DNA of 64,000 bases from Calliopum simillimum (Eukaryota; Arthropoda; Insecta; Diptera; Lauxaniidae), in NCBI GenBank assembly GCA_951812925.1, contig OX638370.1, positions 2,008,001 through 2,072,000 on the forward strand, in the 5' to 3' direction. The translations under genes were made by a program, and so were the position numbers. Positions 3,505 through 59,550 of the stretch are shown here, piece by piece (the stretch's first letter is position 1; each line of letters starts with the position of its first letter). The notes under the pieces were generated by a model. It saw only the letters and a program-made list of their open reading frames with translations. It ran no database searches and was not told the DNA's origin.

Positions 3505-4537
3505 ATATATACTGAATCTCATCCATATGGATGAAACAGTTTCGGAGACATGATGAGATTTATATTTGTGGGGCGTGGTACCGCCCACTTTTTCAGCGGC
3601 TGATTTTTCTCTCTCTGCCTATTACAAACTTATCACATCTTATTTATCAGCTTCTAATAGTTTCGGAGATATGACGAATTTGTTTTTGCGGCACTATTTT
3701 TTCGATCAGATTTTGTAAAATGTGGTGCTCTCACCTTTAATCTCGAGTTTGATTTTTTGAAAAAAACTGTCCATGACTTGAATTTTTTTAGTGTACACTT
3801 TGTTGTGAATAAAAAAAACCATTATGCGACAAACATTACGGCCTCTGATTTTCATTAAGACCCATGAAAAACCGTTCATACGTTCTTCTTGTTCCAGAAC
3901 TATGCCTTGCAACTAAGTAAGAAGTTTTTACTTCCTTATTAAAGTTAGAAAATTAAATTTTTGCGCTGACCTTTATTTTAACATTTCAAAGGCTTGCTAG
4001 AAAACTATATATAATGTCGAGTTCCCAAGTCAAGATATTCGAGGTCAAAGGTCACAAAAAACCGTTTTTTGTGCTAAAGCACTTTTAAAGAAAAATTTAC
4101 TAACGCAGTTTTGTAGATCTACAAAAAAGTTAAAGTATTTTTTTTTTCACACAACTAATAAGTAGTTCAGAAGATATCCTAATTCAAACTTAGTTTAAAC
4201 AGAGTACACTCTTAGCTATGACTATTAGGGTGAGCCAAATTACCAACATTTTTTTTTTTGTTTTATTTCTTAATTCAACAAATTTAATTTGAAATTTAAA
4301 TTTTACAAAAAAGTGTCAACAGGTTTCATAGACGAATGTGCCAAATAGTTTGGTATACATTTTTGAGCAATATGTTCCGGGTTCGAATCTCAGTGTGGAT
4401 GCAAATATTTTTATTAATTTTTTATTATTTCATACCGCGTCTATGTTGGATATATGTTTCATTTTCTGCTCCGAAGACTCTTCAGACAAACTGTGTACAA
4501 ATTAATATAAATTTTAAAATTGGAATTGAAAATAACC

Positions 4538-8900: not shown

Positions 8901-11900
8901 TTTTATTTCCAAAACAAAATGGAAGAACGCCTGAATTTTGTATGAAGATTTTTCTGGCGTTATTTCCAAAAAAATTTCTGGTGATATTTCCTAAGGCGTT
9001 ATTTCAGGAAGCCGGGAGTTGTGACTATTTTGACTTGAAATTCTGGTAAAATTTATTATGTATTTATTTATTATTTTACCGGATGAGCGTTGTTTCCTCT
9101 TTGTCCCGGTGCGTTTTACATTTATATATATATATAGCAAACCTTGTGTAGTGTCGCCAATTTTTCTAGTTGATAACATTTGCTCTGGTGTCCTTTATAT
9201 ATAAAATAAATTCCATCCATATGCTTAGAACAGTTTCAGAGATATGTCTAATTTTGTTCTTTAGGGGCATGACACCACCCATTTTTCTAATAGGTGTTAT
9301 TTGACATAGTGCCTTTTACGTGTGTGCCAAATTTAATTCTTATGCGTCAATTAGTTTCAGAAGTATAACAAATTTCCATGATCTATACTAACATACTCTG
9401 AAAATTTCATCCAAATCGATCAAGTGGCTTCCGAGTCCATAAACGAATACCCAGACAAACTTTAATTTTTTTATATAAGAAGATAAATTACTACGTACTA
9501 TGAAAATGACTATTTTTGTTACTATTAGTAATTTTGTTTTGTAAATCTGTGACATTAAAAAAAAAAACCAAAATAAAAAAAACGAAAAATTCCAATATCT
9601 CCTGACAGGGAGCACCCAGAATTAACAGGCTTTGGGTTTTTTAATCAGCATACCCAGTTTTTTATTTTATGGCTTAGGACAAATGTGTCTTACCAAACGA
9701 TACTAAATTTCTGAGATTTTGATCATATATATCCTTCGAAAATGATCAGCAAAAATTTTGGAAAATATAGCGCTTTCATATCACGAGGCTATAGAAAAAT
9801 ACTGCACACTCTGAATATCTCTACATTTTATGCTGATAATAAGTTGCTTACAGCACGTTGTGATGGGGAAAGGGTGCTTAGATATTACCAACAACACTTC
9901 AAATAGTTTGCTTGCTCTTAACTTTTGCCTCGAAAATGTTCCAAGTTACCCATAGTGACTGTTCAGAATGAATTGTTTCCATTGTTGTTGTTGTGATTTT
10001 TATGAGTTCTTTATTGGCTGCACTGGTTAACCACTTGCTTGGTTTAGATTTTGTTTGTTTGTTTGTTTGTACGCGTTCTCGTAGTTTTAACAGTTTAAAC
10101 CATACATTTGCGTTGAGTGTACAAACAGCAAGTTTTCCCATTTTTCATAAAAAAAACAAACTTTTTTTATTTTTGGCACGTTCATAATTTTGTTGCTGTA
10201 ACATTTGGAAAACTTTTCTGATTTTACTACCTTCAGCTATAATTGCTATATGCTTGCGTATTGGCAACCCTTTTTTTCTTAGTAATAAAATGTCTATTAC
10301 GTTTTTAAAGGTATTTTTTTTATTAATTTCGTAGAAAAAAAGATCACATTTTTCCTTACCCTTATCATTGCCGTTTTATAGTTGTATAATCTATTTTGTC
10401 CTTTTTTTTGCGCTGCCGTTTTTGTTCTCTACTTCACTTTGCTTTACTGATGTATTACTGTTGTTTGTGTGCAGCAACAAATACACGGAACACGTAGGGC
10501 TGCCATATTGAAAGCAACCGGATGCGCATCGACAAATGACGTTTTATGATCTTTCCGTTACGTGAGCGTAAAATCAACGTTAGCAATGAGGGTAAACAGT
10601 GACTTCGAATAAGATTTATGTTACATTAGAGTTGCCACATTAAGAAAAAAAAAAAAAAAAACAATTCTGTAAACTTTCGTTAAAAACTTACGCGATAACT
10701 TTTGATTCACAAAAAAAAACTGGTTTAGAAGTTGCCACTTTAACCCTTTCCGAACTGCTCTTTAACCGCTGGAAAATCTTTTGTTTTTTGAATTTTTCAG
10801 TTTTCCAAAAATTTTTTGCCGTTATTTCCTGTGCCGTTATTAACGGCAGCGGTAAGACCGCTTTTATTGGTATTTGTAATTTGGTAATCGACCAAAAATC
10901 AGTTGTAAAATGTTCAGAACATGCCTAAGCACTGAACTTCACCTTAAACTGAAAACCGGTAATATTGGCCATATCTCTTATTTATGAAGATAAGATACTT
11001 TTTGTAATGGTCGGTTACATATTTAACCAATCCATTTATCCTCTTTTTGGGATGATTATCCTCTTTTTCGAGGCAAGAATTTGGGGAAGTGGAATTGGAA
11101 TATGGAAAAGGTCTTTCATTCATTTAAAAATTTTACTCGCTAAATATATTAATCGACCTTTAGCCTTCCTTTTGAAAAAAAGTCTTTTTTGACAAAAATT
11201 TTTTAAGGAAATAGCCTCCTTTTTGAGGAAGTTGTAATTGGTTAATCATACTTTTTTTTTTTCTTTAACGCTAGTGTTAGGGTGAAGGAAGGTGTTCATT
11301 TTCAGCGAATTTTAGCGTCACAAGATTTATGGATGATCCCACACATTACCATTTCAATTGTAAATTCCACAAATATTTAAAATTCCTTCTCTTGAATTCG
11401 CAAAATTTGTGCAATGTTGCATTAACGGTTTGTGTCAATAATTCAGTGACCTTTTCACGTTGCCTGCATTTATTGAATTCCTGAAATGGCAGGGTGTGTC
11501 GGGCGAATACAAAGTTGATGCAGCGCAAGGATTTTGAAAAGGAATTCCAGTATTAAATAAGGTATTTGCGTGAACGGTCGCTGAGTTATACATATGTATG
11601 TATGTATGTATGTATGTTAAGGTTATAAATGACAAGACAAATTGTATGTATATTCAATAACACTTAGTACCGGTTGAAATAAAGTAGCTGAAATTTGTAA
11701 ATTTTACTTAATTTACATTATGAAAATCCCTCTAACAATAAAACATCTGTCCTTCTGTTTCTAACAATAAAACGTAAAATTGTATCTTGAAACAAAAACA
11801 GATTTCAATTATTTTCTTCATTTTGAAAGCCAATAACAATAATTTTTATGAACATTCGTTTTGTGTTGCCACACCGACCGACTAAATGGCCAAATTGTGG

Positions 11901-19600: not shown

Positions 19601-22600
19601 ATTTCCAACATTGTAAAAACAAATGGATAGTTTTTGTCCTACGTATTAATGTATAGATTTGCACTAAGGGGCTGGTCACTGTAGATCCATCATTTTGTTT
19701 TTTGAAAAATGGATTTCAGATTCGTAATCAGCATCATCGAAAATTCCTTATTTTTGATTTTGCGACCACTGTGTTTCATAATTTCAACATTGAAAAAAAA
19801 AAAAATTTTATTGTTAAGTTTATTTTATTTAATCATAATAAGAGTATATAATTCTTCTTTTAACTGGAGTAAAGCGTATTCCCTGATTTAAATTAATATT
19901 ATGTGTGGTCATATCCATTTTAAGTTTATCATCTTGATGTTGCCTCAGTTTTGATAGTTTACTTCTTAACTTTTGCTTAGTGCGTGAACGTCGTTCAGTT
20001 CGTTTTTTAGTTTTTTGAAGCCTCTTTGACTTGGCCTCGATTTTCTTAGCGAGCTTGAGTGCTTTATGCCTTTTTACGTTAAGAGATTTCCAATTGAAAC
20101 GCTTCTTACCGTAGGGTGTAAAATACCAAAAATAAAAAATTTCTCCAATGAAAAATATCAGACTGAATGCGATACCAACTATAAAAATTGCGAATGGACC
20201 TTGAAGATGATCGGTAGTCAAGACAATAGCGGCCTCTGTGTTCAAAAAATTATAATGTTTCAGTATTGTTAATATGCACGTATGTTACACAAACTTACCT
20301 TTGAAGTGTGGACGCATTTTCGCAATTCGATTTAATATCGTGTTATTATACACAAAGTCCTGATCAATTTTTGTAAAAATGCCATAATCACGCATATATC
20401 GTATTTTCCAATTAAAATCCATAAGAAATGGGAAGCCTGGTTTCATTATCATTTGTAAAGGGCTGGAGAAAACATTAGTCGGGAATGCAAAAATACTATC
20501 CGAGATATTGTGTTGTAAAATGTACATGCGACTGCTGAGTATAACACGTTTGCCATATTTGACTGCTTCAAGATTTTCCGATTCAGGCTCAAAGTATTGA
20601 GAGTAATTGTATTTATTAAATATCCACATATCATCATCATTTTCAAACCAGTCACGTTGCTCTTCGAGACCACCTTAAAACGAAAACTCAATAATTATAA
20701 CTCCATAACTCTATAGTGCAAACACCAACCAAATGGTATATTCTGCTCCACAGCTTCTTCTATCTCATCGATTTGATGCAAAAGACCTGGATTTGTAAAA
20801 ACCGATATCAAATTTGATGTATAGATGGCGACCACATTTAAGCCATATAGCGTAAGCGCCAAAAAGAATATACGCGAAGCACTGTAGAGTGGCCGTTCTG
20901 CCACAGCGTGGCCAATAGTGACGCTGATAGCATTAATGCAGGCCAAAGAGATCTCCTTGTGGCGTAATGGTTCCGGTAACATATTTACAAAAACGTACCA
21001 AAAGAACCAACTGATCAGTATGATTAAAATAAAGCACAACCATGTCTCATTTTCAAATATCGAATATAACGCTATATAGGGTGGTCGTGGATCTGCCAGT
21101 TTTACAAACCAAGTAAAACTATCGGCCAAATAGCAATCTGTAGCCCAAAAGCTTTCCAACACCTCATCGTCTGGATAGAAGCCACCTAATATGAAATCAC
21201 AATGGCGTTCATTTAGTTTGGCCAAGAGTCCGGTCCAATTACCATTGTCTTCGAGAACTCCACGATTATCATGCTGACAGCTTTGATTTATCTGCGAGGT
21301 AAAGTTGAATTTTGAAGGAGTAACTTGGCAAATATGTCGATAAAACTTACTTGAACATTAAGTCGATTTTTTATAAAACTAATTATTCTCATCTCTATCC
21401 CTCGTATGCAGTCTGCCTCAACAAATGGTGCCGCTATGGAAGCGCACATGTTAAACGTACAATTTTGTAGATTCACATTGCTGAAGTACATCTTCATCGC
21501 AGCGTTTACAGCTGCCACATTGGGATATGCAGCGCCATCTCTGCATTCACCGATGAGACGCAAGCGCACAGTACGACACTCTTCATTGTTGAAATAGTCC
21601 AAAGTCCAGAAGTTGTATGTTATCATGTCCGTTGAGAATAGCACCGCAACCCGATTTACATAATGAATTTCTTGCATTTCGGTGAAAATGTCCTTCACAA
21701 TGCGCCGTTCATCGTCACGTGAACGAACGTTATTGAAAAGCACCAGAAACTTTGCACCAGGATTCCATGAACGCATGTGACTCACATAATTCCGCATTAG
21801 ATTTTCAAGTCGGGCAACGGCATCGATGACAAAAACATAACAGTCAGCCATCAGTAGCGCACCACCTCCCATCCGATACACAACATATGGATGTGCGTCC
21901 GAAACGACGCGTAATTGAAAAAGTTGGCGCGTTACGGCCCGCTCGCTGACAGCTTCATTTATGAGCTTAAGGAAGCCATCCTGAATTTGTGCCGCTGGTG
22001 TTGACATGTTGATGACACTGGATAACACCATGTTGTAGGAGCGCGTATACTTTTCGGCACTTGGAAAGTAGATGCCGCTAAACATATCGATACATTGTAC
22101 GCCAGCTTGCCAGGCAGTTGGCCCAATTTCATTTGGTCTACGCAAATAGATGACTTCATTAGCCGTTTGCTGATTAGGATTCACAATGGCATTAGTAAGC
22201 GTTGGTCTCAGGCAGGCGTAAATTATGCAAATTAACGGTATCATTGCTTGAAGCCTGGTGGTTTAGTCCTCGTTGAATGCACGCGGCGCTTGCTGTTTCC
22301 GAAATACTTGGGTTCTCACCGGTTCGCTGGCATTTATACTGATGCAACAAAAGCAAGTGCTTGCATGTGTTCTTGTTTGCATTTTCGGCTGGTTAACAGC
22401 GAATTTGGTCTTGAAAAAATTGTCGTGTTTATTTTTTCAATTAAAAGAAGAAGCGTCAACATGTTGCGCGCCAAAGTAAAAATGTGCAATCCGTGATTTG
22501 TGGATTATGGGTCTGGTGGAAACTGTAAATAGAAAACAAATATTTGATGTTTTTTTGAAAATTAGGGACATGCAAGATTGCAGGAGTTGTCAGTTTGCTG

Positions 22601-26900: not shown

Positions 26901-29900
26901 CTCACTTTTTTGTTAAATAAAAATTTTAATAAAAAATAGATCCCATCGTTTGCCCATTCTAAAAATAGTCTTAAAATTTGTCAAATTCATGAAAGTTTTT
27001 TTAGAAACTTTTTTAAAAAAGTCGAAGAGTACAATCATTAATAAAAATAGCAATTTTGTTTCAAAAGTTGAAAATTTAATAAAAACTTTTTGATTTTTTT
27101 TTTTATAAAAATTTAGTAAAAAAAACTTTTAAAATACATATCATCATTTGGATGACTATTCACGGAGCTATGAGCATTTCAAAACACTCCTAAATGTTGT
27201 TTTTGCAGCTTTTTTAGTTTTTTGAAAATTTATATCTCTGAAACGGCTCGATGAAAAAAAATTTAAAAAACCATAGATGCTAATCTCAACTAAGTAGTAC
27301 TATTAGACAAAACAGTTTCAAAAAAAATCGGAGACGCAAAAGTCAAATGCTATCCGAAACGGTATGCAATGCCCCAAATATATTGAGCAAATCACGGTGT
27401 GTCTTAACCCGTTCTAAATCGGACGTCGTAGCACATCAAATTTTTTTCCAGATTCTGTTTACTTATCGTTCAAATGATGCATAAAAAAATTTTCACTCGT
27501 GACTCCTCGACTAAATTTTGAGATAATCGCTTTTCCAATTGGGGCATTTTCCCATACAAAAATAAAAAACAAATTTTTTTAACTACCTACATTAAACAGA
27601 AATTGAAATAAACACAATCGATGTGTTTTGCTATGCTTAACGCGAATCCAACCTCAGAATTGCTCTATCGTGTATAGCTTATGAGACATTGTAACCTAAA
27701 GACCAAAAAAAGTTGTTTTTTGCCATTATTTGAAGCTATATAACTATGTAACATATCATTTATTCGTCAAATGTGGCTTAGATTTTTTAAAGTCCCAATC
27801 TTTTCCTTTAAGACCTAGTTTAAATTATATTTATATCTTCATGCTTCTAAGAGATATCGTAGACCGAAATATTGTCAAAACGGGTTTTTTGCACTTTTGT
27901 GTCTTTTTAGGTTAAGATATCTTTGAGGAAAAAAAAGATATCAACATAATTTAAATTAGGTTTTAAAGGCAAAGATTAGGATTTTAAAGTTGCTTACCAG
28001 ACTTAACAAAATTAAATTTTCTTTCACATTTTAAACATGTTCAACGAACCGACCATTTCAAAATTCAGCCGTATGCCATACACGTAACAACAACATCGGG
28101 GTGTCAAACGGCTGAATTTTGAAGTAGTCGGTTCATTGAACATGTTAAAAATGTGAAAGAAATTTTAATTTCGTTAAGTCTGGCAAGAAACTTTAAAGTC
28201 CTAATCTTTGCCTTTAAAACCTAATTTAAATTATGTTGATATCTTTTTTTTCCTCAAAGATATCTTAACCTAAAAAGACACAAAAGTGCAAAAAACCCGT
28301 TTTGACAATATTTCGGTCTACGATATCTCTTAGAAGCATGAAGATATAAATATAATTTAAATTAGGTTTTAAAGGAAAAGATTGGGACTTTTAAAAATCT
28401 AAGCCACATTTGACGAATAAATGATATGTTACATAGTTATATAGCTTCAAAAAATGGCAAAAAACAACTTTTTTTGGTCTTTAGGTTACAATATCTCATA
28501 AACTATACACGATAGAGCAATTCTGAGGTTGATTTCGCGTTAAGAATCGCAAAACACATCGATTGTGATTATTTTAATTTTTGTTTAATGTAGTTAAAAA
28601 AATTTTTTTTTTCTTTTTGTATGGGAAAATGCCCCAATTGGAAAAGCGATTATCTCAAAATTTAGTCGAGGAGTCACGAGTGAAAATTTTTTTATACATC
28701 ATTTGAACGATAAGTAAACAGAATCTGGAAAAAAATTTGATGTGCTACGACGTCCGATTTAGAACGGGTTAAGGCACACTGTGAAATGCCTATCCAAACA
28801 TAATTTTTTTTTTCTAGAATTATACAGGGAAAATCTGATCTGGATTACTTTTTTTTGACTAACTTAATGTCGATGATTCTGAAACTGGTAACCGTTTTTT
28901 CCTATCACGTCTTAGAACTGAGTTATCCTTGATTTAATGTGCAGAAAACGCTATTTTCAGACATATGGCAAACATCCAGGAAATAGTGTAGTTCATTTTT
29001 GTCAGAGCCATTGAATAGCCCTGATCTACCTTAACACTTTCAACTGAATCATTTCTTTCCGAGAATTCATTCATTGAAGTAAAGGTATACAAATTTAATA
29101 TAATACTTTGCAGGGATTTGCGACACCTAGCGACCCTAAATTAATTAAAAAAAGTTATCTAAATCAAATTCAGATTGGTTTCCTATCAATTTGTTGCACT
29201 GTGCTTTATAAGGCAAAGTAATTTGTGGTTTAGTGCTAATTACTTTAATTTTTCGCTACCAGAGTGGAGTAAAAATTATGACACTGATTTTTATCCGTGC
29301 AAATCTAAAAATTTTGAGATATATTTTTGAAAAGATCAAAAATTTTGGAAAAATATAATTTTCAAATAATGTTGACAAAACTCAATATAATCGAAAAATT
29401 TTGGAAAGATAGAATAAATTTTGAAAATATCGAAAATGACCAAATTTTATGAAAAGATGAAAAATAAAATGGTTTATGTTGACTATATGACAATTATACT
29501 AATTTTATGAACTTTAGTCAATGTTTTTGCAAGAACGGGCTAACCGAACCGTCAAAACAATGATTGCGCAGCTAGCCGACAATCAACAGCGCAATTGGGA
29601 TGAGAACCTCCCCGAAATCTCGTTAGCCATCAACACTAGCAAGTCCGAGTCTACGGGGTACAGCCCCGCATTCCTCACGCAAGGCCGTGAACCTCGTTTG
29701 CCCAAGACGCTGTACGACGAAGTCACTACAGGGACCGATACAACAAGCCAAGATCCGACGGACCGAGCGGTGAGGTTGAAGGAAGTGTTCAAGCTGGTGA
29801 AGCATCGTCTCTCTCAAGCCGCCACAGACCAAGCCCAGCACTACAACTTGAGGAGGCGACCGTGGAAACCAAAAGTGGGGGAACTAGTTCTGGTGAGACA

Positions 29901-32900
29901 ACACCCGTTGTCCAGGGCCATCGACAGTTTTGCGGCGAAACTCGCGCCGAAATACGACGGCCCATACCAAGTCGTGGGATTCGTGTCTCCGGTGATCGTG
30001 CAGCTCAAGCGCGATGGGGACAGAAGAATGAGAAGGGCACATCTCAGCGAGCTTAAAACCTACCATGGCGGGGTCCAAATCTAAAACCAAAACCCTTAAC
30101 CCCCCTCTTGCCCACTCGTTACCGCCAAACACTAATGAAGTTCCTCTCTTTTCTTCCACTAGAATCACTGAGGAAACAAACTTCAAACTTCACAAACAAC
30201 CGGAACAACCGAAACAAACAAATATGAAGCGCCAGAGACCATGCAACCCCAACCAAGAGATGCCAGCAGCGGTGACCCACGCCGGGAAACCAGTGGCGGT
30301 GGTGCCACCGAACAACCGGGGATACGAGCGGCAGGTCGGCATGTCGGACTTTCGAACGGCACAGCTTCTAGGGGCCGGGGCGTTTGGCAGCGTCTTTCTG
30401 GCGAAGAAGACCAACGGTCGCGATATTGGACGGTGCTATGCGCTCAAGGTGGTGGACAAAGCAAGCTTGTTTGAGTCAGGGGAGCAGACGAAGCTGACCA
30501 TGGCGGAGCGCCAGGTCTTGGAAGCGGTGCGGTCGGGGCCATTTCTGGTGCAGATGCACTACGCTTTTCAGACGCCGACGAAGGTGTACCTGGTCCTTGA
30601 CTATGCGCGGGGTGGTGACCTGTTCGGGCACCTCAGCGAGACGGAGAGCTTGGCAGAGGCGCATGCTCGGTTTTACTTAGCCGAGGTGGTGGTGGCAGTC
30701 CAGTTCCTCCACGGGCGCAACATTGCCCACCGCGATATCAAATCAGAGAACATCCTCATCGATGCAAAAGGCCACCTCCTCCTGAGTGACTTCGGCTTGT
30801 CGGCGATGACACCCATGGGCGCGGTGCCCAGGTTTCGCAAATACTGTGGAACGCCGGAATACATGGCTCCCGAGTTGCGCAAAATAAGTTCCAGAGGGTA
30901 CGGGTTGGCGGTGGACTGGTGGGCCGTAGGGGTACTGGCCTACGAAATGCTGGCGGGGACGACGCCATTCACGAGTACCGAACGGATTTCGCAGATAGAG
31001 GTGGAACGCCGCATCAACAAGCTCCGGCCGTCAATTAGCGACGAGGGTCGTGATTTCGTGTGCCAGTTGCTGACGACCGATCCAAAAAAACGTCTGGGCA
31101 ATAAGGAACGCGGTGCGGAAGTCAGCCGACACCGGTACCTGGCTGAAATTAACTGGCTCCAGCTGCTCAGCCAATCCCTGGAGCCACCGTTTCGTCCCAA
31201 TACCCGCCACCAACACGCCGTACCATTGTACGAAACGCTGCGGGACTCCATGGCATTGGACGCAGCCGCCGCTCGGGCAAGACTGTGCGGGTACTCTTAC
31301 GCCACCAGCGCGGGCAGCATCAATGATCCACCCGGCAAGCCGACCACGCCAAAGGTCAGCGTGATCTCGATAAGTGACACCAGCAGCGAGGGACTGGTTA
31401 GCAAGGCCGCGAGCAGAGAGCCAAGCGGGGCAATACCTCCATCGTCACCAGCACCGCCACACGAGACGGCCAGGCCCAAGGACAGCGGCGCACGACAACC
31501 TCCTTGCCCTGCCACATCCGAAGACGGGGTACTTAGGCTTCGGACGACTTCGATGGCCAGCACCGTGAAGCGTCCGACCAAGGAAGAAACCCAGCCCGAC
31601 CCCCTAGTAGGAGTGGACCTGGTGCCGTTCACGAAGGCGGAGGCAGAGGAAATCCGGCAAATTATTCGAACAGTCGTACTCAGCGGAGAGAAACGGTTCC
31701 ATGTTCAGTAGTTTTTTCTTTTCTCCTAATTGTCATAATATGCATGGAATTTTCGATTCTTGCAAAAACATTGACTAAAGTTCATAAAATTAGTATAAGA
31801 TGAAAAATATTTAAATGTTGGAAAACCTAAGAAAGTTTGGAAACACAAAAAGTTGAACGTTTCTGAAAATTACAAAAACAAAAAATTTAAAAATATTGCT
31901 AAGCCAAAAAATTGCTAAAAACTATTATAGTTTTCTCTGCAAGTAGTTTTAAAATAACTACATTTCTACAGCCCTTCCAAAAGTTATATTGCATTTGTAT
32001 GAGTAGTATTTGCTTTAATCGAATCTCTTGAAGTTGCCATAAAAGGATTAGATTTTTGTGTACAATAAAAAATGTACTTAAGTTTTTGTATTAATACTAT
32101 AGAGTGGCATTTGGCCACTGTCACAGTAGTTGCATTTTGTGAAATTGAAATTGAAAATGGAAATCAAAATATTTTCACACTTACACAATCAAATAAAAGT
32201 AATCAGATTTTCGCTGCTGTTGCTCTTCCTGTTGAGGTTGTGTACCGTCGTCGTCGCAAGGCGCACTTCCGTTTCCGTTGTGACACAGCATTTGCCTCAT
32301 CTATTGCTGTAAGGCATGGAATTAAATTACGTTTTTTTCGATTTTTCCATTTCTTCTAATTCTGTATCTTTTACTTTCTTGAGAATCACCGCAGTTAGCA
32401 AATCAACCATAGCATATTTTAAAATAAATATTGCGAGAATTTATAAAATAATAAACAGTTGGATTTGAATGCTGAAATTCCATTTTAGTAGGAAATGAAA
32501 TTCACTTCTTTTTTTTTGTCCTTGCAAGCCTTGGCTTATTTTGTTGGCATAGCAGCCAGTCGCATATTTAGTATGCTTGTGCATTAATAAAGGTATGCAA
32601 ATATTTCTATCCTTATGTTGTCCTAGTATCCTTGAGTTAAGTTCAATTTGGTTTTCTCAATAGAGAAACTCAAATTAAATTTTACTTTGTTAAGATGAAA
32701 TTTGTTCAAATCGTGATAAATTCTGCATTGGACTGCCAACTGAGTTATGGCCGTTCATAAAGTTTAATTTTATTTATTTTTTTTTTTTGTTTTTCTTCCA
32801 AGTATCTAAAGGTGCGGTATGACAGAAAATTATGTTAAAAGGAAATTAAAATAACTTCCGGAAGGCAGCAGGAATTACAGCTTGGCCAAAATATTTACGC

Positions 32901-49594: not shown

Positions 49595-50062
49595 ATGGCA
49601 TTCACGAGTGACAGTTTGCAACAAATCAAATTACTGTTACGCTTTTTGAACACCACCAACGGTAACCGCAATTCAAATGAAAATCCCTACGGTTCCTTTT
49701 CTGCCAGCAGCAGTAGCAGCAGCAGCAGCAGTGAGGACTCTTCATCTTCAAATGCCACGGATGATGATTCCACTAGCGCTGACTCAGATGAGTATGCCGT
49801 TGCCGATTATCCAGGAATTTTAGATGTCGACCTAACATCGTTGACAACGGAGCAGCGCACCGTATTCATCGCTACGGTTTTCGTGTTGTTCGTACTGTCG
49901 ATATGTGGCAACATTGGCACGTTATTTGTGAACATCCGTCGTAAAATACGTCCGTTCTTTCGCTCTTGCCTGATTTCGTTGGCAGTCAGTGATTTGCTGA
50001 GTACGATATTTTTAACAGGAACGTATATGTCGCAGTTTTTTGTGGATTATGTGCAGATTTGG
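49595..50062 (+). CDS. GPCR exon 1 (N-terminus to TM2/loop)
   Basis: ATG at 49595. Encodes the Ser-rich N-terminus, TM1 and TM2, ending VQIW before gtatgc. The AGC/AGT serine repeat around 49708-49732 may be length-variable. Confidence 0.85.
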
Positions 50063-52240
50063 GTATGCAAGCATTTACAATGTTGAAAGAATTTTAAGCT
50101 TAACCGACTCAATTTTTATTTCTTTATTCTATGCGGCACCGATAGGGTCTTGGATGCTTCATGTGCAGTTTTGTGCCTTTCATCACTACAGTCGCCATAT
50201 TGGCTAGCAGCATGATCTTAGTCGCCATTGCGCTTGATCGCTATTTTGCTGTGATGAAAGCTGCGATCGGATTTTGGAATCCAACTGCTTCTTTCGGCTG
50301 TATCTGCATGACTTGTATTTGGGCAGCTGCAATTGGTATTTCAATTCCGGTATTGTGGATTTATGAGATAATTCCGGTTTATATACTGACAGAATTGCCA
50401 CCCTCAACCGGTGAAGATGGTGGTGGAGCGAATACCACGATTTCATCAATTGCAACAAAAAAACCACCACATATTGTGCATCCGGCAGTACTGACATCAA
50501 CAATAGCAACAACAGCAAGTTCATTTTCTTGGCTGCAAGAAGCATCACAGGAAAACCTAACATACACTTTGGTGCGTGAAGAGGAGTTGGTGTTAATGTG
50601 TGTTTCAAATAAGGTAGGTGGTATTGGATTATGCAAAGGCTGTGTGCTAAAAATACACAACTGTATTAAGGGGCTTATCTTAGGCTCAGAACTTGATGAT
50701 AATAAATCCCTGTGCGTTTTTTATCTAACGTTATCAAATACCAATAGCGCCGACCAACTACGACAAAGTGGGCTTATGACTGACGCCAATTTGAAGTGGT
50801 ATGATAGAAACCTTTTATATGTGCCAAAATGTCATTCAAATGCTAATAAATTATTATCGTATGTATGTATGAAGTGCACAGAATAAGCTTTTAAATATTA
50901 AAATATATATTCGATAAATAATTAAGTACCTAAAAGAACAAATGAACTTTCAGCTACTTTTACGCTACGAAAACTAGCCGTTAAATTATTATTTTTACTT
51001 GTAAATTTTCAGTATCATTAACATTTACATATACTGAACTCACGCGCTTAAGAAAAAACTTTTATTAAACACTGTAATCAAACCAATACTGAAGTGCTAT
51101 ACCATAAACAATGCCTTTTGTACTAGTTGATGAGTGTGTTATTAGAATCCTTGAGTAAAAGTTTAACCCATCGTCATTTCTTATCGTTGCTTGCAACCAT
51201 ACGCATAATTTGCCTTTTTTTTCTTTCAGCGCAATGTGGGTCTCTACTATGTCATTGTATTCTCCATCATTTTTATACCTTGCATTATCGCATTCATATG
51301 GCTAAATACAATTATTGCCAAAAAGCTGTGGATACGGCGTCACACGGGCCATACAAATCAAATACTAAGAAATCGAAAATCCAAATCAAAGTCCAAATCC
51401 CTAACGAATTCCTTTGAGCTGATGAATGCCAATATGAAGGTACCACAAAACCCAAAAGCACCCATTAAACCCTGCAAATGTAAATTTGGTAATCACGCTG
51501 GCGGCCATAACATTTTACCAGCGAAAATCACTGAATCTGCTGGACAAACCAACGTGCTGCCCACAACGCCTACCAGCGCAACGGTGAGCAATGGTAACAC
51601 CACACGCACATCACGTCACATACGCATGTTCACCATTGTGATATTGCTGATGACGGTCTTTCTGCTCTTTCGCTTACCAGCTTGGATCTTTCTCGTCATG
51701 CGCATGTACGGTTCCTACTCGAGGAGTGAACATTGGATTATATACTTTTGCTTTGGTATACTCAATCTAACAAGCTGTGTCCTGAATCCGCTCTTCTATA
51801 CATTTCTTGCGCAAACTATCGCTTATATCACATGCATTAAAGTCACTCTATGGGATAACTGTTGCGGTTTGCGTCTTTGCTTTAAACGTGATGAACATAT
51901 ACCTACAGAGGCACCAATATTTGTGGATAAAAATGGTGCGCCGCCTGAACCGCAACCACATTGGTCATGTGGTTGTTGCTGCAGTGCTTGTGGTTTATCA
52001 AAACCATCATTCTTTTATGATGGACCGCCTAGAAAACGTGATGGTTCTTTGAAAACCGAGGATGTGCCACCAGTCATAGTCAAGCAACCACCACATATGC
52101 TGAAGGATGATAAAGATGAGGGAGTCGAGTGTAGCGACTATGGTGATGAGGATGGTGATAGTATGAATGGTTTTTATAATGAACGCGTTTATACCATCTT
52201 TCCAATGGCATTGGTTTCCACCTCAATGGGATCGGATTGA
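49595..52240 (+). CDS. Class A (rhodopsin-like) orphan GPCR, 3 exons, 648 aa
   Basis: Join 49595-50062, 50146-50613, 51230-52240 (1947 nt, in frame, all junctions phase 0). Seven-helix receptor: TM1 about 90-112 with GN at 105-106; TM2 about 123-147 with LAVSD; TM3 ending DRY (187-189); TM4 about 206-229; a long second extracellular loop of about 80 residues; TM5 about 316-340; TM6 about 443-470; TM7 with NPLFY (498-502). The N-terminus has a Ser run and N-glycosylation sites. The third intracellular loop is about 100 residues. The C-tail is Cys-rich (CGCCCSACG). TM6 has FRLP (459-462) where most class A receptors have CWxP. Ligand unknown; insect orphan group, possibly peptide- or amine-like. 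Acts at the plasma membrane. Confidence 0.88.
50146..50613 (+). CDS. GPCR exon 2 (TM3, TM4, ECL2)
   Basis: Acceptor ccgatag; resumes GLGCFMCSFVPF. Donor gtaggt after CVSNK. Reading continues open past the donor, but that extension lacks GPCR features and is intronic. Confidence 0.85.
51230..52240 (+). CDS. GPCR exon 3 (TM5-TM7, tail)
   Basis: Acceptor tctttcag; resumes RNVGLYYVIVFS at TM5. Stop TGA 52238-52240. An AATAAA at 52301 is a plausible poly(A) signal. Confidence 0.88.
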   Translation, partial: RNVGLYYVIVFSIIFIPCIIAFIWLNTIIAKKLWIRRHTGHTNQILRNRKSKSKSKSLTNSFELMNANMKVPQNPKAPIKPCKCKFGNHAGGHNILPAKITESAGQTNVLPTTPTSATVSNGNTTRTSRHIRMFTIVILLMTVFLLFRLPAWIFLVMRMYGSYSRSEHWIIYFCFGILNLTSCVLNPLFYTFLAQTIAYITCIKVTLWDNCCGLRLCFKRDEHIPTEAPIFVDKNGAPPEPQPHWSCGCCCSACGLSKPSFFYDGPPRKRDGSLKTEDVPPVIVKQPPHMLKDDKDEGVECSDYGDEDGDSMNGFYNERVYTIFPMALVSTSMGSD

Positions 52241-55093: not shown

Positions 55094-58013
55094 TCAACCT
55101 CTATGAGTAAGAGGAGTTGTATTTTTGTAAAATTCAGGTAAAAGCGAAAAGTCAATATTGTTAGGACTAATGGAAGTTTGAATGTTTTCATTTAGAATTC
55201 CAATAGGAGAGAGGTAAAGACTGTTTGACCAACTAAACGCGCTTTGTTGATTTAATATATCTGACATCAGGATGTTCTCGTGATATCTCAGTTTATCGGA
55301 ATAACGGTAAAGCATTAAAAGAGCATACACCGAAAATGGAATTACTTTAGCTCTGCTATAAATAAAATGATTTGAGAAACGTTTAGCATAAGATTCGTAA
55401 TTTCGATCAACACAAAGTCTTAATACACTTCTTTCAAGAATTTCTAGCTCTTTTGCTACTGTAGGGGATATGCTAAACCAAACAGGAAACCCATACAACA
55501 TAGCAGAACGTATACTTACTTTATATATAAGTAATTTTGATTTGGAGCTCAAATATTTATTGAGAAGTAACTTAATAAACATTGATTTAATTCGTATGGC
55601 CTTAGACTTAGCAATTCGCGCATGTTCATTAAATTTTAGTAATTTATTGAATGTAATGCCAAGATATTTAATTTTGTCTCTAAACGGGATTTCAATGTTG
55701 TCTAAAAGGAGATGCAGGGTTTTACTACGAGGAACAACATAATAGGGGCACTTTCCAGATGGATTTCTCAGACAAATAGCTTCAGATTTAGCAGGATTGA
55801 TTTTTATTCCCCATTTTTTATAGTAATTATTTATAATAGTAAGATGGTTAGACACTCTATCTAAAGCTATTTTTGGACAGGTAGAATGGGCATATATAAG
55901 AGAGTCATCGACGTACAAGATACTTTGTGAACCATTATATTCATGTGGAAAATCGCAAATCAATATGTTATACAAAAGGGGTGCCAGGATTGCTCCCTGA
56001 GGAACACCACTACTAATTTGACTAAGGTCTGACTGAGCATTATTTATTTCAACTAAAAATTTTCGGTTTTCAAAAAAACTTTTAAATATTTTAATGATGC
56101 TAGGATTGCAACCGATCCCAATTAGTTTATAAAGAATGCCATTTTGGTAAGCGCGATCAAAAGCTTTCTCAATATCAAGTGATACAGCAATGGTGCATTT
56201 TTGAATGCGAAGGTTACAAATTACGTCGTTATGGAATTTTACCAAAGCATCGACTGAAGAATGGCGCCTTTTGAAACCGAACTGGTGATGAGGTATAAAA
56301 ACAAAATCTAAGTCAGCTTCCATCTTTGCTTTGATAATACGCTCATACAGTTTTCCCAAGTTTGAGAGCATTGAAATCGGCCTAGAGTTGTTCAGACAAT
56401 AATCGTTAGCTTTTTTTTGCAGTGGATATATTTTTGCTATTTTCCAAAAGTCCGGAAAATATCCATTATTAATGCAGTTGTTAAAAATAATACAAAGACA
56501 CTCAAAAGCAGATAAAGGTAATTTTTTAATAATGTAATTTGAAATTTTGTCTATACCTGAGGACTTTTTCGCATTCAGTGTTTTCGAAAGAATTTGGAGG
56601 TCTAAAGTAGATATAAATTGAGGTAAATTGGAGTTATTTAATGAATTTGTAGACGAAGAAAAATTTTGAAGAGTATTGCAAGAGGATAAACAGTTATCAA
56701 TTGAAGAATTGATGTCTAAAATATCTGGTCGATTTGGAATGTTTGGTCTGTAAATATCAGAGAAGTGTCTCCTAAAGTGTTCTACTTTATCCTCATTATC
56801 GGTGTACGTTATACCGTCAACAGTAATCTTACTAAAGCCTCTACTTTTTTTGTTACCTACGCAACTGTAAATTTGTTTATATGCCGCAGGTCCAGGCTTA
56901 ATGTTGCTTAGCCGAAGGTTGAACTGTGTAGCTTGGTGCAGTTCAACTTGTTCCTTAATAATAATTTTTTAATTGAATTTGTGTTGATAACGTCTGATAT
57001 TGAGCGTTTTTTCTATTGCAATTTCTGTGATAAATCTTTTTCAATTCTTTTTGCCAAATATATTTTATACGAAAAAGTTTTTTGATATTGTCGGGAATGA
57101 TAAATTTTTTATTTTTATATTCAATTTTTTCGGAGTGTATGTCAGTAACTGAATTAATACAATTGGTAAAACTGTGTATAGAGGCATCGATTTCTGCATT
57201 GGATAAATTTTTATCTGATGGCAAGTCTAAGTCCAACAACACTAACTCCAAATCAGATTGAAAATCGCTCCACACTGTTTTTTCGAAAGAAGAATAAACA
57301 CGAGGTGGTACAAGGAGAAGATCGAAATCGGAAAAGTTGAATTTAAGCTTTAAAGGAAAATGATCCGAAAAGGAGGGAATTGTTGTTATAGAAAAATTTT
57401 GGTTATTAAAATCAATTATATTTGTGCTGATAAGAAAATGGTCCAAATAAGAACTTCCGTTCGGAAAAGTTGGCGAAATATCACACAATCTTAAAAAATC
57501 CAAAGAAGAATTTTGAAGCCAATCATCAAGACTTTTGCCATTTAAATTAAATAAAAGGTCACCCCAAGATGTGCTCTTAGCATTGAAATCTCCTCCAATA
57601 AAAACTCCGTCATAACTCGTCGATAAATGTTTTATCTTATCTAGACCAGCGCAAAAATCATTAGGGTAGAAATTACAGGGAATATAAACACTTCCTAGTA
57701 GAAACTTCTTAATTTGTCCCGAAAAAGTTACTGAAATTTCAATAAAGCAGTTTGGAAACTGTATGTCCGAAACTGAGACAACAGAGTATTTAGTTTGTTT
57801 TTTTATCACTATTGCCGTTCCTTGTGGTGAGGAATCTCTAATGATAATAAAATCCTCCAAAAATACATTAACATTTTTTGCAAGATGAGTTTCTTGCAAA
57901 AAACAGACGTCAATGTTGTGATCATTTAAAACTTTGATAAGTTCAATACGCCTGCTTGTCTCAATTAAAGATCTTACATTAAAAGAAAGTAAGTTTAGAA
58001 ATCTACGGACCAT
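55094..58013 (-). pseudogene. Jockey ORF2: endonuclease-reverse transcriptase, one frameshift
   Basis: Starts ATG at 58013. The endonuclease part (to 56955) has the APE-type motifs: N12 (FNVRS), E41 (QETH), GGDFNAK (D142, N144), D191 (LDH) and SDH (216-218). At 56965-56970 a T6 run (A6 on the coding strand) shifts the frame: the current frame stops at 56955, while the other frame runs open from there through AKKSSGIDKI, RPISML, SLDIEKAFD, SGVPQG and YVDD to the stop at 55094. One base too many in that run explains everything, so this is either a single inactivating mutation or a sequencing error. Combined length is about 970 codons. The finger-to-palm reverse transcriptase motifs are intact, with YVDD in place of the common YADD. 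Confidence 0.88.
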
Positions 58014-59550
58014 ACTTCATTAAAACATCACGGAGCAAGCTCCTGTATTCTAACTTGGCCTGTTCTTTTGGCAATGACTTAAATGTTAGCAAAAAAGCTC
58101 TTATCTTACTTTCTAAAGATGAATTATCAGAGTCTTCAAAATATTTACCAATATTTAAAAACTCTTCAACTAATAGAGGAAGCTGTTTACTCTTAAGTAT
58201 GTTATTTTGAGAGACTGGCTCAGTGTGAAAGTTACTAGCGTAAGACTTATCTGCAGTTACAAAATTCGACTTGTTAAGGGCTGCTTTAAGATTATTAGCA
58301 GCTTGATATTTTCTGTCCTTAGCCGAATTTAACAGTTCGAATTTTCGCTTCATGTAAGTCTTGTAAACCGAACAACCCCTATAGTTTGCCGTATGTCCTG
58401 TCTCTTTGCAATTAACGCAAGTAGGAGATAAATTTTCTCCCACTTTCACACTGCAATCACCTGGTGCATGTGAGTTATCACATTTTACACAAGCAAATTT
58501 TCGATTGCAGTTACGGGCAATGTGCCCCCATTGTTGACACCTGTAACACTGTACCTCCTTTTGTTTTGACTTTGGAGATTCCCATGAAATTGATTGGTTT
58601 AAAATATAGCGAAGGCCCTCTATATCACTAAGTTTCTTACCAGAAACAAGAGTCACGAGAAAAAGACTTGTATCGTAATTATTTTTAACAGAGAAAGGAG
58701 TAACAAGTTTTTTAACTTTGTCAACAGTTCCTGAAATCTCAGCATCCAGTGCTTCTTTTATTTCTTGTGTGTCTGTCAAGTAATAAAGACCTCTCATGAC
58801 TATACTAATTTGCTTAAGTTCAGGAGGAGTAAAAGAATGAGATTCAATATTTTGGGTGCGTAATAATTCCATCATTTCAAGGTAAGCGGGTAGATCTTCA
58901 AGGTATAATTTACTTTTAGTTTTACTTTTATTTACAATTTTGTAAACAATTTTTGGGGTTTTGGCATTTAGTTGGTCTACAAGTTTTTTAATATTAACGT
59001 TAAATAGCATTATTGGAGGGCAAAAACCAGACTTCTTTTTTTTACCCAAATTTTGTACATTGCTTTTATTATTAGAATTAGGAATAATATTTGTATTAGG
59101 CGCAGAAGGCTTCTTGCTGGTTTCAATATTCATTTCACCTAATATAGCAAATCGATTTGTCGAAACTGTTACTTGCCCCAGGGACGAAACATCAACATGC
59201 TTGGCGTTCATGTTAGGTTCGCCTTGTTTTGCACTCTTACGTTTGCGACTCGAATCAGATACTTCGTCAAAAGTGTCATTTTCACTTGAAAGACCATCCA
59301 TTGAAATGTCAACTTCACTTAGTTCATTTGTCTCACCTGCGATTGTTCCAGATGTAGCTTTGAAGTCATCTATTTTATCTTCAGAAGTAGAGTTTGGTGA
59401 TAAAACTGCATTTCTTAACGCTTGGCCAATATTTGATGTGATTTTTCGATTTCTCTTCAGTCTTGACTTTTTTTTCTGGATAGACTTATCCGGCGGCATT
59501 TTTTTTGGATGGTCTTTTACATCCAGATTAAAAAGTTTATTATCCACCAT
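58003..59550 (-). CDS. Jockey ORF1 (Gag-like, three zinc knuckles)
   Basis: 515 aa, ATG at 59550. Basic Lys/Arg-rich N-terminus (residues 17-40), acidic/Ser linker, then a domain at about 200-310 resembling the PRE_C2HC region of insect LINE Gag proteins. Three CCHC knuckles follow: C335-C338-H343-C348, C354-C357-H361-C366 and C378-C381-H386-C393. The C-terminus (about 480-515) is helical and charged. These proteins package the element RNA into ribonucleoprotein particles. The stop overlaps the ORF2 start. Confidence 0.92.
   Translation of the reverse strand: MVDNKLFNLDVKDHPKKMPPDKSIQKKKSRLKRNRKITSNIGQALRNAVLSPNSTSEDKIDDFKATSGTIAGETNELSEVDISMDGLSSENDTFDEVSDSSRKRKSAKQGEPNMNAKHVDVSSLGQVTVSTNRFAILGEMNIETSKKPSAPNTNIIPNSNNKSNVQNLGKKKKSGFCPPIMLFNVNIKKLVDQLNAKTPKIVYKIVNKSKTKSKLYLEDLPAYLEMMELLRTQNIESHSFTPPELKQISIVMRGLYYLTDTQEIKEALDAEISGTVDKVKKLVTPFSVKNNYDTSLFLVTLVSGKKLSDIEGLRYILNQSISWESPKSKQKEVQCYRCQQWGHIARNCNRKFACVKCDNSHAPGDCSVKVGENLSPTCVNCKETGHTANYRGCSVYKTYMKRKFELLNSAKDRKYQAANNLKAALNKSNFVTADKSYASNFHTEPVSQNNILKSKQLPLLVEEFLNIGKYFEDSDNSSLESKIRAFLLTFKSLPKEQAKLEYRSLLRDVLMKYGP

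Follow-up and report, generated by a model that had tools for sequence, protein, structure and literature searches.

We examine here a stretch of 64,000 nucleotides from the lauxaniid fly Calliopum simillimum (contig OX638370.1, positions 2,008,001 to 2,072,000; C3:2008001-2072000 in the 690 Mb assembly that was searched), referred to as the window in the following. It contains an integrase fragment followed by a long open frame for a protein kinase. The pair is almost certainly a dead fragment of a Ty3/gypsy long terminal repeat (LTR) family that carries a captured N-terminal MSK/JIL-1-type AGC kinase as its third open reading frame (ORF3), in the place of env.

The fragment in the window

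The features of the fragment and its edges are as follows, in window coordinates (L numbers denote loci of this genome).

29463..29535, + strand: left piece of a foldback-like repeat, 98.6% over 71-73 bp to copies L050, L051 and L052; its inner 42 nt are the left arm of an inverted repeat
29521-30084, + strand: integrase-fragment frame, 187 codons, from the open reading frame listing of the window
29533..30084, + strand: Ty3/gypsy integrase fragment proper, from the third catalytic acidic residue through a GPY-type domain to the stop; 58-67% to the better gypsy pol proteins from flies and unnamed sources
30065-31711, + strand: open frame of the kinase, 548 codons without interruption, from the same listing
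30140..30162, + strand: putative 3′ splice site, a pyrimidine tract with AG, from sequence and eye only
30224..31711, + strand: kinase ORF3 from its likely natural start, ATG 30224 (codon 54 of 548); the frame is open up to 30065
30353..31105, + strand: AGC kinase domain (Pfam Pkinase, residues 97-347) with P-loop, Lys, HRD, DFG and APE
31289..31306, + strand: GYSYAT, equivalent of the hydrophobic motif of the AGC C-tail, by alignment
31361..31390, + strand: SUMO-interacting-type motif VISISDTSSE, by sequence pattern
31628..31699, + strand: start of the ORF3 C-terminal segment, cut off in the window, by comparison with L022, L024 and L021
31699..31798, − strand: right, inverted repeat piece with its arm at 31757-31798; identity 86% in a 115-column alignment that includes a gap of 15 nt

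The 187-residue frame encodes the C-terminal half of an integrase of the Ty3/gypsy type (match to the Ty3 integrase end in the PDB, E 5.7e-7), and the 548-residue frame is an AGC kinase (Pfam Pkinase, E 2.3e-60) whose closest solved structure is ribosomal S6 kinase alpha 5, that is MSK1 (E 5.9e-84). These matches confirm the order of integrase fragment and kinase that an earlier note on the window had proposed. Its claim of a GC-rich composition common to both frames holds as well, the third-position GC being 0.64 in the integrase frame and 0.67 in the kinase frame, compared with 0.27-0.50 in six other open frames of the window. The integrase part is without the DDE core, and its SH3_Tf2-1 match scores under the Pfam cut-off.

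LTRs are absent, and both ends of the retroelement part are cut. Its left end is the third catalytic acidic residue of integrase, which we take to be the E of ERANR. On the right, judged against other kinase copies, it ends near 31699, and the final three residues and the stop of the kinase frame derive from the flanking repeat. The window copy is a dead fragment, consisting of an integrase end and ORF3. The kinase had been described as intact and full-length, and this stands for the open frame, which is uninterrupted, but not for the C-terminus, which falls some 23 residues short of L022. ORF3 runs on to its stop 23 residues further in L022 and 25 in L024, and L021 has a full end that can be aligned.

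The overlap of the two frames, also claimed previously, has to be qualified. The open frames do share 20 nt, but this is likely not natural, in view of the putative acceptor site and of the ATG at 30224. A pyrimidine tract ending in AG was found, by eye, between the integrase stop and ORF3 in all seven copies printed (window, L041, L021, L022, L024, L026 and L027), and ATGAA stands at the ORF3 start position also in L021, L022, L024 and L027. The natural ORF3 of the window thus probably comprises 495 codons and would be translated from spliced RNA.

Within ORF3, the P-loop, Lys, HRD and DFG are unbroken in both the window and L021 kinases. Where MSK/JIL-1 kinases have the activation-loop serine, before FCGT, the element kinases have K or R, the sequence being RKYCGT in the window, RRYCGT in L021 and RRRCGT in L028-L030. 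In the window and L021 there is a single Pkinase stretch, and the second (CaMK-type) kinase domain of MSK is absent. No env-type protein was recognised in ORF3, where the Pfam matches above the cut-off are kinase families only. In the predicted kinase model, residues 91 to 380 were divided into ten-residue blocks, and 24 of these 29 have a mean predicted local distance difference test (pLDDT) score of at least 80; the top fold matches are the kinase domains of RSK2, PKC, S6K and AKT.

The kinase-bearing family and its descent

A kinase search of the genome, in which 79 of 263 candidates were scored, gave at least 89 matches, host kinases among them, and 20 stretches around kinase matches were fetched and read. 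Five of them (L021, L022, L024, L026 and L027) have the family integrase immediately 5′ of the kinase, and the further locus L068 has an integrase (52%) at 7-408 followed by kinase pieces (35% and 47%) at 799-1289. Whether the kinase recurs beside the same integrase had been named as a check in the earlier note; it is not confined to the window, and the adjacency was read in sequence at seven loci, the window counted. The remaining 15 stretches comprise host JIL-1 (L036), three loci that by their motifs resemble other host AGC kinase genes (L037, L039 and L040), and 11 with kinase pieces and no integrase within the stretch. A purine tract and an LTR start were found 3′ of the kinase in L022, L023 and L031.

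The kinase also occurs inside an LTR unit. Locus L021 (C2:80162500-80172499) has direct repeats of 877 bp, 100% identical, at 3661-4537 and 9074-9950, with the ends TGTGAGG...GTTACA and a 4-bp CACT target duplication in the flanks. After the left LTR comes TGGCGCCCGAGCAGGGAC, the primer-binding site is of the TGGCGCCCG type, and a purine tract lies ahead of the right LTR. Between the LTRs lie frames for a piece of gag (134 aa), for integrase (348 aa, with rve and H2C2 above the Pfam cut-off) and for the kinase, the last open over 574 aa. The insertion is recent, as its identical LTRs tell. The reverse transcriptase is missing by internal deletion, and L021 was therefore probably mobilised by the enzymes of another copy, or lost its reverse transcriptase during or after insertion. 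A genome search with the LTR gave 41 matched pieces from 33 candidates. Among the 20 stretches there was no copy with gag and with protease, reverse transcriptase, RNase H and integrase in order plus the kinase. The existence of a kinase-bearing Ty3/gypsy family in this fly is well supported.

Three further element kinases (L028, L029 and L030, at C5:64.18, 64.30 and 64.31 Mb) have no stops in the part that was matched. Long arrays of tandem repeats are close by, and integrase pieces are found some 4-9 kb upstream. The three kinases were perhaps duplicated together.

We now consider the descent of the two genes. In a kinase tree of 54 rows, obtained after dropping 23 of 77, including L036 (host JIL-1), L037, L038, L013 and L020, the eight element kinases (window, L021, L022, L024, L026, L027, L028 and L029) form one clade (100/100). 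Without constraint they are placed beside cyclorrhaphan JIL-1 (94/94), on long branches; in an earlier tree of 75 named proteins chosen from 240, the window was the sole element and had a very long branch. Of the positions that discriminate MSK from RSK/S6K, 16 show the MSK residue in the window kinase, 7 that of RSK/S6K and 15 neither. Host JIL-1 (L036) matches the window kinase in two pieces, at 46% identity. The same pieces reach 74% (147 columns) and 97.5% (81 columns) against JIL-1 of Lucilia, other parts of which match at 29-51%.

The integrase tree contains 46 rows, of which 23 are chosen proteins and 23 come from this genome. On one side of a 96/97 split stand the window, L021, L022, L024, L026, L027 and L068 together with L041, L053 and L054; the other 12 fetched integrases of this genome are on the opposite side. 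The kinase is deleted in L041 and a remnant in L053, and L053 and L054 are the elements of L048 and L047, which retain, by eye, N-terminal ORF3 remnants only, resembling those of L021 and L027. One outside protein, P0254, joins the kinase side on a long branch. This tree replaced a quick one of 70 rows, with L041 as the sole kinase-free integrase of this genome; the same groups are obtained in both, and the later tree supports no particular order among them. Both the kinase tree and the integrase tree contain the groups (window, L022, L024) and (L021, L026). The topologies fit a single capture followed by joint descent of kinase and integrase.

The ratio of nonsynonymous to synonymous substitution (dN/dS) of the kinase domain, calculated against the window, is 0.16 for L022, 0.19 for L023 (57 codons), 0.14 for L024, 0.21 for L025, 0.15 for L031 and 0.20 for L032. 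For the integrase, the corresponding values are 0.29 for L022 and 0.28 for L024. Pairs with a synonymous distance above 1.3 or infinite were not used (L021, L026-L030 and L033-L040); the domain ratios printed for some of these saturated pairs are 0.14 for L027, 0.10 for L033, 0.04 for L034 and 0.34 for L038. Between L021 and the decayed L026 the ratio is 0.41. Decayed copies raise dN/dS, and the living lineages are therefore probably under stronger constraint than these values suggest. The ratios indicate that the element kinase is under purifying selection. The idea of the earlier note that an element had captured an MSK/JIL-1-type kinase is thus borne out by the seven integrase-kinase loci, the LTR pair of L021 and the signature of selection.

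Within a copy, moreover, the kinase shows a greater synonymous distance than the integrase beside it, 0.65 compared with 0.225 for L022 against the window, and 0.19 compared with 0.09 for L026 against L021. Exchange between elements is one possibility for this gap.

The SUMO-interacting-type motif recurs as well. It follows the hydrophobic motif as VISISDTSSE in the window, VIYISDSEDD in L021 and IIVISDDSSD in L029, and among 11 copies scanned it is present after the kinase domain also in L021, L022, L025, L026, L028, L029 and L030.

Other members of the wider family have different third ORFs. When 2 kb after the integrase are read from stop to stop, a serine-rich frame of 509 aa is found in L046, one of at least 662 aa in L044 and one of 361 aa in L043, and none was recognised over this distance in L042 and L045. 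The frame of L044 (C1:66951750-66953749) ends in tandem repeats within the stretch read. Outside this genome, the integrase has 76 protein matches with E values of 1e-3 or lower (585 candidates). The closer ones, with 58-69% identity, include proteins of Calliphora vicina, of Musca autumnalis (63%), of several species of Drosophila and of unnamed contigs. Related pol proteins have protease, reverse transcriptase, RNase H and integrase in this order and no kinase, and some of their frames extend into a third ORF. In P0276, residues 1104-1273 after the integrase are a Ulp1-type SUMO protease (Peptidase_C48, E 5e-21), with His, Asp and Cys at the usual places, by eye. No kinase family appears in the precomputed Pfam lists of the 76 proteins, and no relatives were found in viral contigs with either the kinase query or the family pol alignment. 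A search of published titles and abstracts gave no captured kinase in an insect gypsy element, which does not prove its absence from print.

The flanking repeat and other features of the window

The integrase-kinase pair is framed by a perfect 42-nt inverted repeat (29494-29535 and 31757-31798) that has no third occurrence in the window. It belongs to a high-copy repeat with at least 40 other matches in the genome, 39 of which cover the 93-base query from end to end. Of 1057 candidates, 40 were scored, and the genome repeat counts are lower bounds. Three copies were read, and they have inverted repeats of 427 bp (100%, L050), 241 bp (100%, L051) and 214 bp (99.5%, L052), with direct repeats in L050 and L051 only.

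These framing repeats could mean that a foldback-type transposon took up the integrase and kinase, and that the pair in the window is the mobile unit of an inverted-repeat element. We consider this less likely than not. None of the copies L050-L052 matched integrase or kinase, the right repeat piece of the window is truncated at its outer end, and no target duplication was recognised for the repeat; moreover, such a transposon would account for the window copy only and leave the family unexplained. Since the retroelement part is cut on both sides and pieces of the repeat stand at its edges, the window copy is a Ty3/gypsy fragment that lies between inverted pieces of an unrelated, high-copy foldback-like repeat.

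A Ginger DNA transposon was rejected as an identity of the pair; the integrase in the window is coreless, the inverted repeats come from another repeat, and L021 has LTRs.

Elsewhere in the window there is a large palindrome-like repeat at 27387-28789, in which the longer arms (522 nt, 93% complementary, separated by 23 nt) lie within or overlap a second pair of 200 nt (97%, separated by 1003 nt). Frames resembling an ionotropic-receptor type gene are found at 19829-22244 (−), with a sub-threshold Lig_chan match in 20695-21225. Pieces of a rhodopsin-family G-protein-coupled receptor gene are located at 49595-52240 (+), with 7tm_1 at E 6.7e-8 in 51236-52240 and no family match in 49595-50086. 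Finally, frames of a non-LTR retrotransposon lie at 55094-59550 (−), namely a zinc-knuckle ORF1-like frame, an endonuclease and an RVT_1 reverse transcriptase.

Possible role of the kinase

Kinases of the MSK/JIL-1 type are of the kind that keeps chromatin open, and transposons are silenced through chromatin and SUMO. Few transposons are known to encode proteins against chromatin or SUMO silencing. Taking together the MSK/JIL-1-type kinase, the SUMO-interacting-type motif and the SUMO protease of a relative, the simplest reading is that ORF3 would be an opponent of SUMO-dependent silencing. An anti-silencing role of the kinase is plausible, and as an explanation of the whole we lean towards a captured-kinase gypsy family with ORF3 as an anti-silencing factor.

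The mechanism that we tentatively propose, and that may well turn out otherwise, is the following. ORF3 would be translated from a spliced subgenomic RNA. With the second kinase domain and the activation-loop phosphosite lost, the kinase would probably be free of control by mitogen-activated protein kinases. The SUMO-interacting-type motif could dock it on SUMO-marked silencing complexes of the PIWI-interacting RNA (piRNA) pathway and heterochromatin, and local phosphorylation, of the H3S10 type or of silencing factors, would then keep the element transcribed. Relatives may arrive at the same end with other cargo, e.g. a SUMO protease. In line with a role of this kind, JIL-1 mutants are reported to have reduced transcription of the HeT-A retrotransposon, with H3K9me3 and HP1a increased at its promoter (PMC3521665).

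Several observations speak against an anti-silencing factor maintained by a kinase-bearing family. Open pol and open kinase occur together in none of the stretches read. The integrase search of the genome gave at least 151 matches (150 of 1948 candidates scored), and the two best after the window, L049 (C4:33432469) and L041 (C2:127413111), are 98% identical and have open frames of 1058 aa. L041 is the closest open-pol copy read, and its kinase is deleted internally: the identity spans integrase and splice acceptor and then jumps to the last residues of ORF3, the purine tract and the LTR (end by eye). In L049 there is no kinase-sized frame before the LTR-start motif, 295 nt into the stretch read. 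The kinase is accessory, dispensable at least for a time. That intact related gypsy elements might end without it had been anticipated in the earlier note, and this came about by half; L041 is without the kinase, but the deletion left the ORF3 end in place, and third ORFs of other kinds occur in the wider family. As for the wider distribution, the protein searches with the kinase gave only kinases of other genes among the best 120 of 2503 and 120 of 1021 significant matches, the second search having been made with the kinase set inside a longer reference, so that proteins of ~990-3150 aa became candidates; the nearest among the matches listed are MSK/JIL-1, with up to 48% and 49%. The affinity to JIL-1 is also less firm than the unconstrained tree suggests. 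When the elements are placed outside MSK, the score of the tree is slightly better, and the approximately unbiased test does not reject it (p-AU 0.69); a position firmly inside dipteran JIL-1 was dropped for this reason. Furthermore, depletion of JIL-1 is reported to change H3K9me2 only slightly (PMC6877644).

The same holds for the motif and the C-terminal segment. The motif pattern was written after the sequences had been inspected. It occurs in 12 of 15 third ORFs, hand-chosen for this count and with long-tailed pol proteins such as P0297, P0302 and P0306 uncounted, compared with 0.125 expected from shuffles. The same pattern was found in 11 of 240 full-length kinases from the searches and in 6 of 76 pol parts of 850 aa, and it is absent from the Ulp1-bearing P0276, from P0311 and from L043. 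The C-terminal segment of the window did not stand out against other ORF3 ends. With a hidden Markov model (HMM) 991 of 1845 scored shuffles were as good, in a run where one of seven tails (P0273) had been wrongly cut, and with the corrected tail the window kinase is not among the matches listed; in pairwise comparisons, 49, 78, 183, 259, 470, 686 and 811 of 1000 shuffles were as good. For the ends of L021 and L022 the HMM gave 494 and 134 of 1000. A profile-profile comparison of five kinase-type ends (L021, L022, L024, L031 and L028) with six others (P0273 and P0276 out, L046 added) yields a weak match: its score is 18.5, none of 100 column shuffles exceeds 15.3, and the match probability is 8%. 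Kinship of the kinase-type ends with other ORF3 ends is suggestive only. The C-terminal segment of P0243 is modelled with high confidence as a beta-alpha-beta-beta-beta fold, and the 50 best rows of a fold search with the P0243 model show integrases and no structural name for this domain.

Another option considered is that the captured kinase serves the life cycle of the element, by phosphorylating Gag, integrase or host trafficking or cell-cycle factors in assembly, nuclear entry or spread. A constrained kinase domain (dN/dS 0.14-0.21) that is inherited together with the integrase fits any useful function, this one included. The kinase is, however, nearest to the MSK/JIL-1 chromatin kinases, and the SUMO-interacting-type motifs and the SUMO protease in related third ORFs point to SUMO biology; a life-cycle role seems rather improbable. 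A functionless passenger, spread by hitchhiking, is far less probable. It would agree with the loss of the kinase from L041 and with the in-frame stops in the aligned pieces of 9 of the 16 element-type kinase copies, many of which are truncated, but not with the dN/dS between lineages, the catalytic motifs kept in the window and L021, the preserved motif and acceptor site, or the identical LTRs of the open-kinase copy L021. Insertion of a host JIL-1 retrocopy next to a gypsy fragment, a simple origin that the earlier note had itself raised and that an intronless MSK/JIL-1-type frame might suggest, is refuted to near certainty because the LTR unit of L021 holds the kinase; the recurrent adjacency, the single clade of element kinases and an identity of only 46% to host JIL-1 pieces that are themselves 74% and 97.5% identical to Lucilia JIL-1 stand against it too.

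Returning to the captured-kinase family, it is useful to compare it with known systems. L021, with its LTRs, primer-binding site, purine tract and 4-bp target duplication, and the gypsy-type integrase of the family are as in the Ty3/gypsy elements (Metaviridae) of Diptera, and the difference lies in the third ORF, a kinase in place of env. With the N-terminal kinase of MSK/JIL-1, ORF3 has in common the AGC domain, its motifs and the hydrophobic-motif equivalent; unlike MSK/JIL-1, it has no second kinase domain and no activation-loop serine, and it adds the SUMO-interacting-type motif and a C-terminal segment of its own. Acutely transforming retroviruses have captured host kinases with loss of the regulatory parts, and an LTR element with such a kinase is what we see here also; in contrast to these viruses, the ORF3 kinase appears to have been inherited and diversified with the integrase under purifying selection. 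The errantiviruses (gypsy/gypsy clade) likewise have a third ORF after pol with a splice-acceptor-like site ahead of it, and in insect errantiviruses env is made from spliced RNA (PMC12992720; the main text of that paper does not contain the word kinase). ORF3 differs in matching kinase families only and no env-type fusion protein. Ginger1 elements, described in PMC2836005 as cut-and-paste DNA transposons of a gypsy-type integrase lineage with Ulp1 or OTU domains, resemble P0276 in combining this lineage with a SUMO protease domain; the word kinase is likewise absent from the main text of that paper.

On a broader view, which we hold with less confidence than the mechanism above, this would be a gypsy family of Diptera in which a SUMO-interacting motif forms the core of a modular third ORF. 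Its cargo would vary with the lineage, an MSK/JIL-1-type kinase here and a Ulp1-type SUMO protease or serine-rich proteins elsewhere, and would serve as a counter-defence that disarms SUMO-dependent piRNA and heterochromatin silencing.

The capture of a kinase would here be a lasting trait of an LTR family and not a brief oncogenic accident. Tests of the ORF3 protein are feasible in cultured fly cells, and a family that keeps a chromatin-type kinase under purifying selection would provide, for animals, a direct example of counter-defence encoded by the element itself.

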